Notes under the pieces: model-generated
What the model saw: only the letters and a program-made list of their open reading frames with translations
What the model was told of the DNA's origin: nothing
Database searches by the model: none
Part shown: positions 1 through 11,235 of the stretch, in pieces
Layout of the letters: each line of letters opens with the position of its first letter
Position numbering within the stretch: position 1 is the stretch's first letter
Position numbers and translations under genes: made by a program
Assembly (NCBI RefSeq): GCF_023273855.1
Contig: NZ_CP096884.1
Coordinates: 620,001-684,000, forward strand
Length of the DNA: 64,000 nucleotides
Origin: Seonamhaeicola sp. ML3
GTDB taxonomy: Bacteria; Bacteroidota; Bacteroidia; Flavobacteriales; Flavobacteriaceae
Reading direction: 5' to 3'

Positions 1-1002
1 AGATAGTGTAGTGGCATCTTCGTATATCGTATTGACACTGCTGTATAGGTCATTTGTAAAATCACTGGTTTTTTGAAAGGTATAATCTGCACCTAGAAAC
101 CAAACTCTAGGTCTTCCTATACCTAAACCAAACGACATCTTAGAAGGCATAACCAAATCTGTCTCTAAAAGCCCAGCAGATTCTAAATCCACATCGATAT
201 TTTCACTAACAAATTCTTGTCCTGTACTACCAACAGTGGTTATTGTTGCAATAGACCGTTGGTTTTTTGATGTTAAGTCGCTTTCTGGAGTATAAGTGGT
301 AGTTGCTTTAAGCTCCAAATTATCGGTAAGCATAGTGCTATAATATAAGCCTAGATTAAAATTCAATCCACTTAAATCAGAACGATTACTTTCTCTAGAC
401 TGTAATTGCAAACGAACACCGTCATCATAGACATATTCTACAATACTGTTCTGAATATTACCAAAATTATAATGTGCATCTACACCAAAACTAAGCCCTT
501 TAGCTATACGATAACCCAAACCTAAAAAAGCCTTGTTAACGCCTCCTTCTCCACGAAATCTATTCTCTATATCACCTGCTGTGTTTAACGATTCTAATTT
601 ATATCCTACTGAGGTATAAGGAAGTAATCCTAAAGCAAAACCAAACTTACCCATTGGTATAGATAAAGCCAGATAATCGAATGTTGTTGCACTTGATGTA
701 GCACTCCCAGTCTGAGTGTCTAAGTTTGTATTAACATAACTACCGCCAACGGTAAACTTTACAGGTCTACTCTCGTTATTCCAATCACTTATGTTTTCAG
801 TGGCATAAGAGGCAGGGTTACGAAGGTTTACATGAATACTATCAATGTAAACACCTATTCCTCCCATACTCCTATTTTCTACTGTTCCTTTGAACTTAAG
901 GCTACCTATACCATAAAAAGAATAAGGTGAAGCTGTCCCTTCTTGTGCATAACTTGTTACAGCTATCAACGCAATAAAAACTACTACAAGTTTTTTTATC
1001 AT
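1..1002 (-). CDS. FadL-like outer membrane beta-barrel protein (C-terminus cut by window edge)
   Basis: The reading frame runs without a stop from an ATG at 1000-1002 to base 1, giving 334 residues; the C-terminus lies outside. A signal peptide of about 19 residues ends in SYA before QEG. The mature start (SPYSFYGIG, then RSMGGIGVY and NPASYA) and the alternating strands rich in Gly, Tyr and Asn resemble the OmpP1/FadL long-chain fatty acid transporter superfamily, which forms outer membrane barrels. Its ATG overlaps the coaX stop codon (ATGA), so the two genes are translationally coupled in one minus-strand operon. The substrate cannot be told from sequence. The barrel assignment is fairly safe; the FadL label is by resemblance. 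Confidence 0.7.
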   Translation of the reverse strand, partial: MIKKLVVVFIALIAVTSYAQEGTASPYSFYGIGSLKFKGTVENRSMGGIGVYIDSIHVNLRNPASYATENISDWNNESRPVKFTVGGSYVNTNLDTQTGSATSSATTFDYLALSIPMGKFGFALGLLPYTSVGYKLESLNTAGDIENRFRGEGGVNKAFLGLGYRIAKGLSFGVDAHYNFGNIQNSIVEYVYDDGVRLQLQSRESNRSDLSGLNFNLGLYYSTMLTDNLELKATTTYTPESDLTSKNQRSIATITTVGSTGQEFVSENIDVDLESAGLLETDLVMPSKMSFGLGIGRPRVWFLGADYTFQKTSDFTNDLYSSVNTIYEDATTLS

Positions 1003-7556: not shown

Positions 7557-7737
7557 TAAATTTTTAGGTCTTTTGTTGACCTGTCTTAATTAACGAACAG
7601 TAGAATTTCAAGGTTCTCAAAATGGTCTATTCTCTTGTTCGAAACAACTCCGAAAAGTTGCTTCTTACGCTGTCAATTTCAATATGTCTATGAACTCTTT
7701 TTATCTTTACTAAACTCGCTTCCTCGTTTAGCGGGTG

Positions 7738-7768
7738 CAAATATAAAACCCTTTTTTTTACTCCACAA
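7738..7768 (-). promoter_or_regulatory. rRNA operon promoter P1 (proximal)
   Basis: On the minus strand the -7 box TATATTTG (7738-7745) and TTG (7766-7768) are 20 nt apart. It is followed by CACCCGC. Transcription should start near 7731, giving a leader of about 175 nt before 16S. Confidence 0.8.
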
Positions 7769-7875
7769 TACTTTTTGATATTTTTTTTGAAAAAAGTTTT
7801 TTTCTGCTTTTTTCCCTATACAATATCCCTGTGAACGTTCGCACTCCCGGGATAGCTACCCCGTTTTTGCGGGTG

Positions 7876-7905
7876 CAAACATACGACCCTTTTCCGTTTC
7901 CGCAA
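7876..7905 (-). promoter_or_regulatory. rRNA operon promoter P2 (distal)
   Basis: On the minus strand the -7 box TATGTTTG (7876-7883) and TTG (7903-7905) are 19 nt apart, followed by CACCCGC as in P1. P1 and P2 are also alike around the -7 box (GGGT upstream, TTTGCACCCGC downstream), suggesting a local duplication. Confidence 0.75.
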
Positions 7906-8200
7906 GAACTTTTTCAATCTTTTTTCAATCTTTTTTGAACCACCTTTTTTAGCCCCTTAGAACCAAGTGGTTACAAAACAAAAAAAATACACAAAAATAT
8001 ATACCTGGGACAAATCGGAAATTACAAGGTACGGAAAATTTCTTAAAACCAAGACTCAAGACTCAAGACTCAAGACTCAAGACTCAAGACCCAAGACCCA
8101 AGACCCAAGACCCAATGAACAATTAATGATGAACAAGGACTAACATCTTATGCCTTTTACCTTGACCAATGGAATCTGAGATTAGGGAATAGACAACTAA
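7906..8200. other. Spacer upstream of the rRNA promoters
   Basis: No gene is visible between promoter P2 and the stop codon of the putative porin, about 300 nt. It holds two direct copies of TTTTTCAATCTTTT-like sequence just upstream of P2 and the 9-unit heptamer array at 8051-8113. No clear terminator was found after the porin gene. Confidence 0.5.
8051..8113. repeat. Heptamer tandem array, nine units
   Basis: Five exact copies of AAGACTC are followed by four exact copies of AAGACCC. It is the most regular of the period-7 arrays in this window and looks recently expanded. Confidence 0.95.
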
Positions 8201-10231
8201 CTACAAAAAGAAATTCCAAACAACACCAAAACGAACTGTAAAGTCTCGGTAAGGGTTATTAGGGGCCGAAAAATAATCGTAACCTGTAAATGATGAATTG
8301 AAGTGCTCGGCTTTTAAGAATAACCTTGTCTGCCTAATTTTCGCATTAATAAAGAAATCCAACCTAGGAAACCCTCCAAACTTTTCTGTATTTTGAACAT
8401 AAAACTCTGCTAACAATGGGTTATAAGCATTCATATTATACTCAGTGAAATAATTTAAGGTTACTCCTGTTTGGAGAAACAATGCTTTCCTAAACATTTC
8501 ACTGGAAAAATAAAATGTATTTCTTGTTATGAGTTCAGGTACGTTTAAAGAATTGTTTTCGTCCTGTACGTTTTGATATAATACCGTATTATTTAGGGCA
8601 AACTTACCTAATTTTATTTCGTTCTCTAACTTAACCTTTAAATAGGTTATTGTAATACTATTTTGAAACGGCCTTATTTCTTGTGAAGATTCGGTGCCTT
8701 CAATATTCTTAAAATACACATAGTCTGTTATAGTATTTAAATCGACAGTAATATTCGCTAGGTTTTTATATTGTGCATTAAAAGACAACTCTTGGGACTC
8801 TATATTATTGAATCCATTTTGCCAATTATAGTTTTTATAATCACTTTGATACAATAGGGTATTGTAATTTGGTGCTCTTGAACTATGACGCAGTGAAGCC
8901 GATGCGGCTATGTCTTCTTTTAGATTAAAAGATACTTTACCCGCAATATAATTCCCTTCAAAATCCCCTGCAATGTTGAGCCCAAATTTACCATTCAACA
9001 GAAATCCTTTGTACTTTTTATTATATACACCTTCAACGGCATATATATTCCCTTTTAAACGGTTTGTTATGGTTGAATTATCAAGAACAACTATTTTATC
9101 GTATCCATAATTGTAATTGTTATTGGTTATACCAAAATGCAAGTCTCCTAAAACATCATTACTATAATTAAGATAGACTTTATTGTAGAAGTTTTCTAAA
9201 GTACTCCTGTCTCTTATATTAGAATTCACAAAAGATTCTCCAAAAAAACGTGTAAGACTAGAGGTTTGCTCATACTGAAAGTATTTATCCTCGAAGGACA
9301 TTACATGACCTATTTTAATTTCATTTTTATTTAGAGAGTCTTGCTTTATGATTGTATAGTCGTGTTCCAAGTGCACACGTTTTCCCAATAGTATACTCTC
9401 TGCGTTCTCAAAATTCACTTCTAAAATCGACCTATCTAAAAACTCGTCTTCGCCACCAATAAAATTAGCTACACTCACATCATCTAAACCACCATTTTCC
9501 TGATTGAGTAAATCCTGAGTTACAATATGCCCACGAGCGTTATACCTCTTATTTTTTGTCTGGTAGTTTGAAGTAAACCTAAAATTACCCGTACTCGTAA
9601 GCACATGTTGATACCTACCCAAAGACCGCAAGCCTTTATATGCTATCGAAAAGTTAAACTGAGGTGAAGTGTTTATGGTAATGAAAGAATCTACTAACTG
9701 GCCTTGCTCGAAAGCTGTTCTGTAGAATAACTCTGTTAATGGTGTTGGGACCCTGTAATAGTTTATGTCTTCTACCTCCCAGTAATTGAAATGTCTGGCC
9801 TGTGCACCAAAGTTTGGCATCAAGCTCGTATCACCAAAACTATAAGTAAGACTGTTGTAGGTCTGACCTAAATTAGCAAAAGGCAGCAATCCAAAATTGT
9901 CACGTCTTAAATAGTTAAACTTATAATCTTTTTGAATGGTTAGAGTCGTGTCTACGTAAGTGGTATCTCGCTCTGCTGTGATTATAAGATAATCCTTTAT
10001 CCCGACCACTTCCTCTTCAGGTTCAACATCAACGGGTTCTTTTTTTAGCTTACGCTTCTTGGACAGTTTTTGTAAAATGGTATCTTGATCTTTTGGGGCA
10101 ACAACCTCTTTATTTTCAACAGGCTCTTGGGCACTAAGAACACATACTCCAAATAAAAAGAAAAGCCCAATAGACATTCTCACTTTACTAACAAGAGCTT
10201 CAACATTTCTTTTAAAATGTGTATTCAACAT
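8201..10231 (-). CDS. Putative porin (Porin_10-like outer membrane protein)
   Basis: This is a 676-residue protein with an N-terminal signal segment (SIGLFFLFGVCVLSAQ), a charged linker rich in Lys, Glu and Pro (about residues 30-75), then a long run of alternating aromatic/polar strands ending in a Phe-rich C-terminus (RFGVVWNFFL), as expected for an outer membrane barrel. Flavobacteria commonly carry a 'putative porin' gene divergent from rnhB, as here. The open frame extends upstream to a TTG at 10307-10309, but a good -7 box (TACTTTTG, 10276-10283) lies inside that extension. The ATG at 10229-10231 was therefore chosen; a further ATG at 10175-10177 is possible. Its substrate is unknown. 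Confidence 0.75.
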   Translation of the reverse strand: MLNTHFKRNVEALVSKVRMSIGLFFLFGVCVLSAQEPVENKEVVAPKDQDTILQKLSKKRKLKKEPVDVEPEEEVVGIKDYLIITAERDTTYVDTTLTIQKDYKFNYLRRDNFGLLPFANLGQTYNSLTYSFGDTSLMPNFGAQARHFNYWEVEDINYYRVPTPLTELFYRTAFEQGQLVDSFITINTSPQFNFSIAYKGLRSLGRYQHVLTSTGNFRFTSNYQTKNKRYNARGHIVTQDLLNQENGGLDDVSVANFIGGEDEFLDRSILEVNFENAESILLGKRVHLEHDYTIIKQDSLNKNEIKIGHVMSFEDKYFQYEQTSSLTRFFGESFVNSNIRDRSTLENFYNKVYLNYSNDVLGDLHFGITNNNYNYGYDKIVVLDNSTITNRLKGNIYAVEGVYNKKYKGFLLNGKFGLNIAGDFEGNYIAGKVSFNLKEDIAASASLRHSSRAPNYNTLLYQSDYKNYNWQNGFNNIESQELSFNAQYKNLANITVDLNTITDYVYFKNIEGTESSQEIRPFQNSITITYLKVKLENEIKLGKFALNNTVLYQNVQDENNSLNVPELITRNTFYFSSEMFRKALFLQTGVTLNYFTEYNMNAYNPLLAEFYVQNTEKFGGFPRLDFFINAKIRQTRLFLKAEHFNSSFTGYDYFSAPNNPYRDFTVRFGVVWNFFL

Positions 10232-10275: not shown

Positions 10276-10283
10276 CAAAAGTA
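10276..10283 (-). promoter_or_regulatory. -7 box of the putative porin gene
   Basis: TACTTTTG on the minus strand matches TAnnTTTG. Transcription would start near 10269, which rules out the upstream TTG start. The -33 element is weak (a TTG 23 nt upstream). Confidence 0.5.
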
Positions 10284-10320
10284 GTTATTTGAACGGAAAG
10301 AGTGCTCAATTATTTTAAAT

Positions 10321-10390
10321 AAAGAAAGCCAGCGTTTACCACTGGCTTTCTTTCTAAATATTAAACAAGAATATTTACTTTGAGTTAGTC
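10321..10390 (-). ncRNA. Candidate small RNA of about 70 nt
   Basis: A strong promoter (10396-10427) points at this interval on the minus strand, and it ends in a perfect 12-bp hairpin (AAAGAAAGCCAG / CTGGCTTTCTTT, 9-nt loop, 10321-10353) with a T-rich tail. No protein gene lies between. It sits in the divergent region between the putative porin and rnhB, where a terminator would serve neither gene. It could be an sRNA or the shell of a lost tRNA unit, since its promoter resembles stable-RNA promoters here. No homology to a known family was recognised. Confidence 0.45.
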
Positions 10391-10395
10391 GAGTG

Positions 10396-10427
10396 CAAAC
10401 ATCTAATAATTAAACTGAAAAAACAAA
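10396..10427 (-). promoter_or_regulatory. Promoter of the candidate small RNA
   Basis: On the minus strand TTTG (10424-10427) lies 20 nt from GATGTTTG (10396-10403). The bases after it, CACTCGACTAAC, resemble rRNA P1 (CACCCGCTAAAC). The only departure from the -7 consensus is G for T at the first position. Confidence 0.55.
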
Positions 10428-10610
10428 AAAACAACTAAAAAACACCTTAAAACCTGCCAAAAATCAGGTTTTGAAATTATTATATCCACAACCAAACATC
10501 TATTTCTTAAAGTATTATTCAAAAAAAATCATCAAAATACTAAATTTCGTAATAATTATTAAACAAAACGTAAAAACCTATGTATGCATAATAATTCTGT
10601 CAATTAATTA

Positions 10611-10618
10611 TAGATTTG
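10611..10618 (+). promoter_or_regulatory. -7 box of rnhB
   Basis: TAGATTTG matches TAnnTTTG exactly and lies 17 nt before the rnhB ATG. The -33 element is poor. The transcript leader would be only about 10 nt. Confidence 0.5.
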
Positions 10619-10635
10619 ATAAATTTTAACATAAA

Positions 10636-11235
10636 ATGCTAAAAATAAACTTTTCTGGGTTTGAACTAGAATGTGGTACAGATGAAGCAGGAAGAGGCTG
10701 TCTTGCCGGCCCTGTAACTGCTGCTTCAGTAATACTTCCAAAAGACTTTCAAAATGATTTACTCAACGATTCTAAACAATTAAGTGAAAAGAAGAGGCTT
10801 TTATTGAAAACTGTTGTTGAGAAAGCAGCACTTAATCACAGTGTGGCTCATGTGTTTGAAAAGAAAATAGATGAAATTAATATTTTAAATGCTTCTATTT
10901 TGGCCATGCACAACGCTATAGATCTGCTACCCACTGTACCAGAATTTATTATTGTAGATGGTAACAAGTTTAAGCCTTACAAAGATATTCCGCATGAAAC
11001 TATTATAAAGGGTGATGGTAAATACTTAAGTATTGCTGCAGCATCCATTCTCGCTAAAACGCACAGGGATTTGTATATGAACAAAATCCATGAAGAATTC
11101 CCTATGTACAATTGGAAACAGAACAAAGGCTATCCTACCAAAGAACACCGAGAAGCCATCAAAAAATATGGTGTTACCAAATACCACAGAAAGTCCTTTA
11201 GATTATTACCCGAACAATTAAAATTAGATTTATAA
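10636..11235 (+). CDS. rnhB: Ribonuclease HII
   Basis: This 199-residue enzyme removes ribonucleotides from RNA/DNA hybrids in the cytoplasm. The family signature DEAGRG is at residues 16-21, and the acidic active-site set D16, E17, D108 (IIVDGN) and D145 (KTHRD) is complete. Length is normal for the family. The gene is followed after 31 nt by a conserved flavobacterial lipoprotein gene, probably cotranscribed. Confidence 0.97.

Follow-up and report, generated by a model that had tools for sequence, protein, structure and literature searches.

Between the divergent porin and rnhB genes of Seonamhaeicola sp. ML3, a minus-strand promoter is followed by a terminator hairpin with no gene between them. 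What does this unit produce, and what could the product do? We examined the locus in the window (the whole stretch of DNA analysed, 64,000 nucleotides) and in related genomes. The unit is very probably a stand-alone small-RNA gene, previously undescribed and conserved in one clade of Flavobacteriaceae (Table 1).

A predicted small-RNA gene between porin and rnhB

Table 1. Positions of the predicted small RNA, its parts and its neighbours in the window.
Feature	Positions	Strand	Basis
-33 element (TTTG)	10424..10427	-	positions -36 to -34 94-100% conserved, 17 aligned loci
-7 element (GATGTTTG)	10396..10403	-	positions -13 to -6 88-100% conserved, 17 aligned loci
Predicted transcript start and seed GACTAACTCAAA	10379..10390	-	+1 to +12 94-100% conserved (17 loci)
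Predicted small RNA, ~70 nt, ends approximate	10318..10390	-	fold, covariance models, rnhB synteny
Terminator hairpin	10321..10353	-	paired changes in stem, 22 sequences
TAnnTTTG box of the porin gene (TACTTTTG)	10276..10283	-	read from sequence; 3' of hairpin
Putative porin, PF14121 (Porin_10)	8201..10231	-	Pfam E 3e-160
TAnnTTTG box of rnhB (TAGATTTG)	10611..10618	+	read from sequence
rnhB, divergent neighbour	10636..11235	+	ORF; homologue adjoins RNA in 30/32 loci

The unit is unnecessary to the flanking genes, because each of them has its own TAnnTTTG box. The box of the porin gene (ATG at 10231) is retained in most congeners in our alignments, and that of rnhB (ATG at 10636) lies outside the promoter–hairpin unit. 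The separateness of the unit, as claimed in the preliminary description of this DNA, was thus upheld, and sequence evidence gives the small RNA a promoter of its own, apart from those of its neighbours. A role as leader or attenuator of the porin gene was rejected, since the porin box lies below the hairpin and, in genome G006, the gap between the RNA and the porin gene is a susCD operon of ~7 kb.

Both elements of the proposed minus-strand promoter were confirmed by their conservation in 17 loci. Downstream of them, the near-invariant GACUAACUCAAA follows five variable bases in the 17 aligned copies. These five bases are only 41–65% conserved, versus 94–100% for +1 to +12, in a profile that was anchored on the seed and comprises the 17 of 24 extracted loci that contain it. 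Since the sigma-A box of Flavobacterium psychrophilum is placed at -12 to -5 in PMC9723704, the onset of conservation falls where transcription would be expected to start. From this promoter, which is of the Bacteroidetes vegetative type, an RNA of ~70 nt that begins with GACUAACUCAAA and ends at the hairpin is expected.

The 12-bp hairpin is as first described: its arms, AAAGAAAGCCAG and CTGGCTTTCTTT (10321–10332 and 10342–10353), pair perfectly, ~70 nt from the predicted start at 10390. Across 22 sequences, 24 cells of the stem are altered on both sides, and none of 500 shuffles reached 24. The RNA therefore has at its 3' end an intrinsic terminator with a covarying stem and an interrupted T-run (TTTCTTTATTTAAAA). 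A generic terminator scan did not list the hairpin, and the generic promoter scan is a sigma-70 scan, with Bacteroidetes promoters outside its coverage; we judged the unit real despite the unlisted terminator because of its conservation.

The 78-nt RNA folded at −24.2 kcal/mol, versus a shuffle mean of −9.1 (SD 2.4; z = −6.39), and none of 200 shuffles equalled it. For 15 homologues outside Seonamhaeicola, z against mononucleotide shuffles ranged from −1.6 to −3.4 (mean −2.4). Their single folds, judged by eye, allow a middle hairpin of changing sequence (CATCT/AGATG, CATTCC/GGGATG, CAGCT/AGGTTG and others), which the Seonamhaeicola RNA has in shortened form.

A DNA search of 59 genomes, including that of the window, gave strong matches in all six other congeners and in G025, of another genus (E = 1e-49 to 4e-19); some match at E ≤ 0.1 occurred in 54 of the 59, mostly short and weak. 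In covariance-model scans with strict filters, which may miss divergent copies, model R1 reached E ≤ 0.01 in 55 of 299 genomes. Among the 30 R1 loci listed, 17 adjoin rnhB, two adjoin the porin gene only and 11 adjoin neither; we discarded the last group as look-alikes of the terminator. Model R2, built from 22 sequences, reached E ≤ 0.001 in 56 of 397 family genomes and scored at least 74.8 bits in 22 of them, the next score being 62.7 bits. Of 196 genomes sampled from the order, 19 reached E ≤ 0.001; above 50 bits were only G154 and G000, both Flavobacteriaceae, and nothing beyond that family. A pattern scan of named genomes returned 26 stretches, every one from Flavobacteriaceae (Seonamhaeicola, Algibacter, Flavivirga, Aestuariibaculum, Aestuariivivens, Mariniflexile, Hyunsoonleella, Gaetbulibacter and uncultured relatives).

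The neighborhood is conserved as well. rnhB adjoins the RNA, nearly always divergently, in 30 of 32 loci, some of which come from the same genomes; the exceptions are L180, whose sequence stops 155 bases from the RNA, and L150 (G350), in which the two are parted by a susCD operon. The window genome holds no second copy beyond short matches, and R1 gave one weak second match there (E = 0.005). The Rfam search suggested in the preliminary description yielded no family at gathering scores, either at the unit or at 20 further loci, and only chance-level matches at the unit at E ≤ 10. In listings of the open-licence literature, we found no account of this RNA or of the leuB element described below. 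The suggested comparison with relatives was more rewarding, since the promoter–hairpin pair is kept in congeners and related Flavobacteriaceae and its stem covaries. Conservation, promoter anatomy and covariation thus lend good support to the original reading of the unit as a small RNA of ~70 nt.

Further features were seen nearby. Just 5' of the promoter, at 10449–10472, lies another hairpin with a T-run (AAAACCTG..CAGGTTTT); recognisable in several Seonamhaeicola, it is perhaps the terminator of a different transcript. Heptamer repeats (TCTTGGG / TCTTGAG) occupy ~8049–8114, between the porin gene and the rRNA operon, and two promoter-like sites TTTGCACCCGC lie on the minus strand at ~7731–7741 and ~7869–7879, 5' of the 16S rRNA gene.

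susC-type operons at the same place in relatives

Some relatives have a susC-type gene where the window has the unit, and its promoter and leader match the promoter and 5' end of the predicted RNA. We inspected the region 5' of rnhB in 30 further, hand-chosen genomes of the family, searching 800 bases in each. A strong model hit was found only in G350, elsewhere in the interval. Ten of the 30 (G011, G015, G019, G030, G035, G238, G268, G350, G356 and G419) have a susC-type gene that points away from rnhB, preceded by a promoter and leader resembling those of the RNA (G011, for instance, has TATTAAGATGTTTGCGCTAGACTAACTCAAATAATTGTTTTATG); the seed is altered in the leaders of G350 and G356. Weaker leader variants occur in G013, G032 and G140, and the other 17 genomes have no such leader within the 800 bases searched. 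The genes of G268 were identified by Pfam as SusC (PF07715, PF13715) and SusD (PF14322, PF07980), and the susC-type genes of the remaining genomes were judged by sequence.

The other end of the operon also resembles the RNA gene: in G238, G268, G419 and G356, the terminator of the RNA stands at the far end of the susCD operon, just 5' of the porin promoter. Elsewhere RNA and operon occur together. The RNA is followed by a susCD operon that has a leader of its own in G002, G006 and G174, and by a sigma-factor gene (PF08281 in G025) and a susCD-like pair in G025 and G276; in G350 it comes after the susCD operon. The rnhB–porin interval is a hotspot: its susCD operons differ from genus to genus, and some of them are accompanied by a sigma-factor gene (L310–L314, L319, L324).

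In a FastTree analysis of RnhB and LeuB (55 genomes, 10 of them without LeuB; midpoint root; supports mostly uninspected), every one of the 26 RNA-bearing genomes fell into a single group, which also includes G012, G238, G268, G356, G374 and G419. susC at rnhB was found outside this group too.

The RNA has the look of a susCD operon that collapsed. The susC gene would be the older state; the RNA may have arisen when an operon collapsed to its promoter–leader and terminator, and operons would have re-entered later. The genome states (operon; leader plus terminator; RNA beside operon) suggest a route by which the loss of an operon might give rise to a small-RNA gene. The preliminary description had considered the leftover of a lost gene, namely a tRNA gene; the idea of a leftover survives, with the susC-type gene and its matching promoter–leader in place of the tRNA. 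Likewise, the likeness to rRNA P1 that it noted comes down to a common TTTG box and a few bases, and the susC promoter–leader is closer.

A complementary element behind leuB

The reverse complement of the predicted RNA 5' end is conserved in the 3' UTR of leuB. The element, TTATTT(T)GAGTTAGTC, directly follows the leuB stop codon, with a terminator within ~50 bases. The complement UUUGAGUUAGUC was present 3' of the leuB stop in all 25 RNA-bearing genomes examined, exactly in 23 and as variants in G247 and G350; 21 of these elements were met via the word itself, and the four met via protein search comprise two exact and two variant ones. None of 16 family genomes outside the clade has the element. 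Among clade genomes without the RNA, it is exact in G238, carries a change in G268 and G356, and is missing from G012. The survey left out G339, G008, G016 and G026, and G011, G013 and G033 gave no leuB match. At L069 (G000:C1:1830000-1832000; 929–958, minus strand), a conserved TTATTTGAGTTAGTC stands right after the leuB stop and is followed by a terminator, a layout that makes it a candidate 3'-UTR-derived small RNA.

The RNA and the leuB element, itself a candidate small RNA, are complementary over 12–16 bp in most of 19 genomes. Predicted duplexes in the 19 ranged from −16.5 to −21.6 kcal/mol, with 0 of 300 mononucleotide shuffles as strong in each case. One compensatory change was found, in G350, where C is replaced by U in the RNA and G by A in leuB; the sister genome G162 has the U–G intermediate. 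Two genomes, G006 and G023, have a seed mismatch to leuB, and in G247 the seed and leuB both vary; we counted these cases against the proposal, set out below, that the RNA acts as a sponge.

The leuB element can also be paired with susC leaders. Six leaders from six genomes gave −15.1 to −24.0 with the leuB element of the window genome. The window genome itself has 19 SusC/TonB-type genes, nine of them over the family cut-off; with the first ATG taken as start, strong pairing was predicted for one of these nine (−22.7) and for two of the ten below the cut-off (−20.4, −18.4), and the other 16 gave −11.3 or weaker. With one susC leader of the window genome, the element forms 18 consecutive pairs. 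Since only one of nine full-length SusC genes pairs strongly, a general SusC regulator is not indicated.

The word GACTAACTCAAA is frequent in RNA-bearing genomes. It occurs 157 times in 25 of them (135 besides the RNA), versus 13 for the reversed word, and 18 versus 19 times in 27 other family genomes. The word is also enriched in G238, G268 and G419, which keep the leader on susC but have no RNA (5, 13 and 14 versus 1, 1 and 0); therefore, the enrichment tracks the clade and not strictly the RNA. Clade versus non-clade amounts to one contrast, which again was counted against a sponge.

We classified 78 sites at 77 loci in 14 genomes (13 RNA-bearing and G238; G162, G191, G247 and G339 were left out). 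Complementary 3'-UTR sites ahead of a terminator made up 29 of the 78, versus 9.8% of 1540 random intergenic positions from the same loci, although 14 of the 29 are leuB orthologues and not independent, and removal of leuB leaves 15 of 64. There were 12 sense 3'-UTR sites (control 10.3%), which a sponge scheme does not need, 10 sense 5'-UTR sites (control 9.0%), three coding sites and 24 others. A pooled set, which adds the first eight genomes and G030, requires no terminator and assigns the complementary class first, holds 129 unique sites from 23 genomes: 75 complementary 3'-UTR, 15 sense 3'-UTR, 12 sense 5'-UTR, nine coding and 18 other. The biggest group is leuB (22 genomes); with 12 genomes, an ankyrin-repeat-like gene comes next. 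Ends that look susD-like precede several sites, and both of these names were given by eye. Targets at start codons were rejected, as the complementary sites lie mostly in 3' UTRs.

Two arrangements of the word were seen in passing. TTTGAGTTAGTC stands after susD-like genes (L081, L205, L254, L260), where an operon end could pair with susC leaders. GACTAAYTCAAA, in the sense orientation, lies between an acyl-CoA-dehydrogenase-like gene and a terminator at L052/L074 (G000:C1:556110) and in orthologues, a layout resembling that of the RNA.

Possible role of the RNA and comparison with known systems

By analogy with FopS and CrfA, we cast the leuB element as a repressor and the RNA as its sponge. 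The leuB element, UUAUUU(U)GAGUUAGUC with its terminator, perhaps joined by further 3'-UTR elements of its kind, would act in the manner of FopS, repressing certain susC genes by pairing with their leaders 10–25 nt 5' of the start codon. The RNA would offer leader sequence and titrate the leuB element, and susC repression would be relieved. That the RNA is such a leader-mimicking sponge or decoy in a FopS-like network is the reading we favor, with a confidence slightly short of even. We are more doubtful of the full account, in which a regulator born by susCD collapse was kept as a sponge of a repressive leuB 3'-UTR-derived RNA and its siblings on particular susC leaders, linking expression of leucine biosynthesis to nutrient uptake at the outer membrane in marine Flavobacteriaceae. 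The sequences support the RNA gene and the complementarity; that the unit is transcribed, that leuB gives rise to an RNA of its own, and which partner regulates which, we infer. If true, the scheme would offer a testable RNA circuit at a SusC transporter in marine bacteria, with leuB as a possible metabolic input, in a phylum whose small RNAs are little charted beyond Bacteroides.

The same data can be read otherwise. The RNA could be an ordinary trans-acting small RNA whose 5' seed binds mRNA 3' UTRs with UUUGAGUUAGUC, above all that of leuB but also those of the ankyrin-repeat-like gene and others, and alters mRNA stability, its likeness to susC reflecting common descent only. The excess of complementary 3'-UTR sites ahead of terminators and the retention of the leuB site in every RNA-bearing genome examined agree with this. 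However, about half of that excess class consists of leuB orthologues, and the 18-pair complementarity between the leuB element and a susC leader is left unexplained; we consider this explanation unlikely, if worth keeping in mind. Less probable still is that the word acts at the DNA level, or binds a protein recognising GACTAACTCAAA, and that the leuB–RNA complementarity is a by-product. Such a role would suit a word that occurs in either orientation close to terminators and within 5' UTRs, but the change in G350 with the U–G step in G162, albeit a single event, suits RNA pairing, and conservation begins exactly at the predicted transcript start.

A transcribed but functionless susCD remnant, retained by chance, would account for a promoter–leader and a terminator that match operon parts. 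It is a poor candidate, however, since the seed is near-invariant across many genera while the flanks differ, and the terminator stem has compensatory changes. We give next to no weight to the idea that the promoter and hairpin arose by chance or are left over from a tRNA gene: A+T-rich intergenic DNA does yield many promoter-like matches, but conservation with synteny contradicts an accident, and neither ARAGORN nor Rfam finds a tRNA at the site, so that the lost tRNA gene of the preliminary description was dismissed.

Among known systems, the Rfp RNAs of F. psychrophilum resemble the RNA in that they are stand-alone, belong to the same family and use the sigma-A box TAnnTTTG, as given in PMC9723704. 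Identity with Rfp18, whose third stem-loop is predicted there to pair with metalloprotease mRNAs, was rejected on its description, since architecture and targets differ. The other Rfp RNAs were likewise compared by their descriptions there, and the RNA might conceivably be one of them. CrfA of Caulobacter crescentus is, according to PMC12559287, an experimentally shown sponge of SisA–D. Our RNA is similarly proposed to neutralise a small-RNA family in nutrient adaptation; unlike CrfA, it belongs to an unrelated organism, and its sponge role is deduced from sequence.

The FopS RNAs of Bacteroides, according to PMC11697453, repress SusC mRNAs near the start codon. FopS/GibS of Bacteroides thetaiotaomicron and our predicted RNA share the phylum Bacteroidota, a length of 65–70 nt, a canonical promoter, a conserved 5' seed and, on the reading proposed here, a network at SusC translation initiation, and the one FopS member described there as 3'-UTR-derived resembles the leuB element. 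GibS (RF04182) matched in Rfam only at E = 2.8 and on the opposite strand, and FopS was compared by description. The two differ in orientation: FopS has an antisense seed and represses SusC, whereas the seed of our RNA reads in the same direction as the susC leader and is not complementary to SusC start regions. The FopS-like partner would thus be the leuB element and not the RNA of the window. In Bacteroides, the same source reports, FopS repression is relieved by RbpB; here, an RNA might do so.
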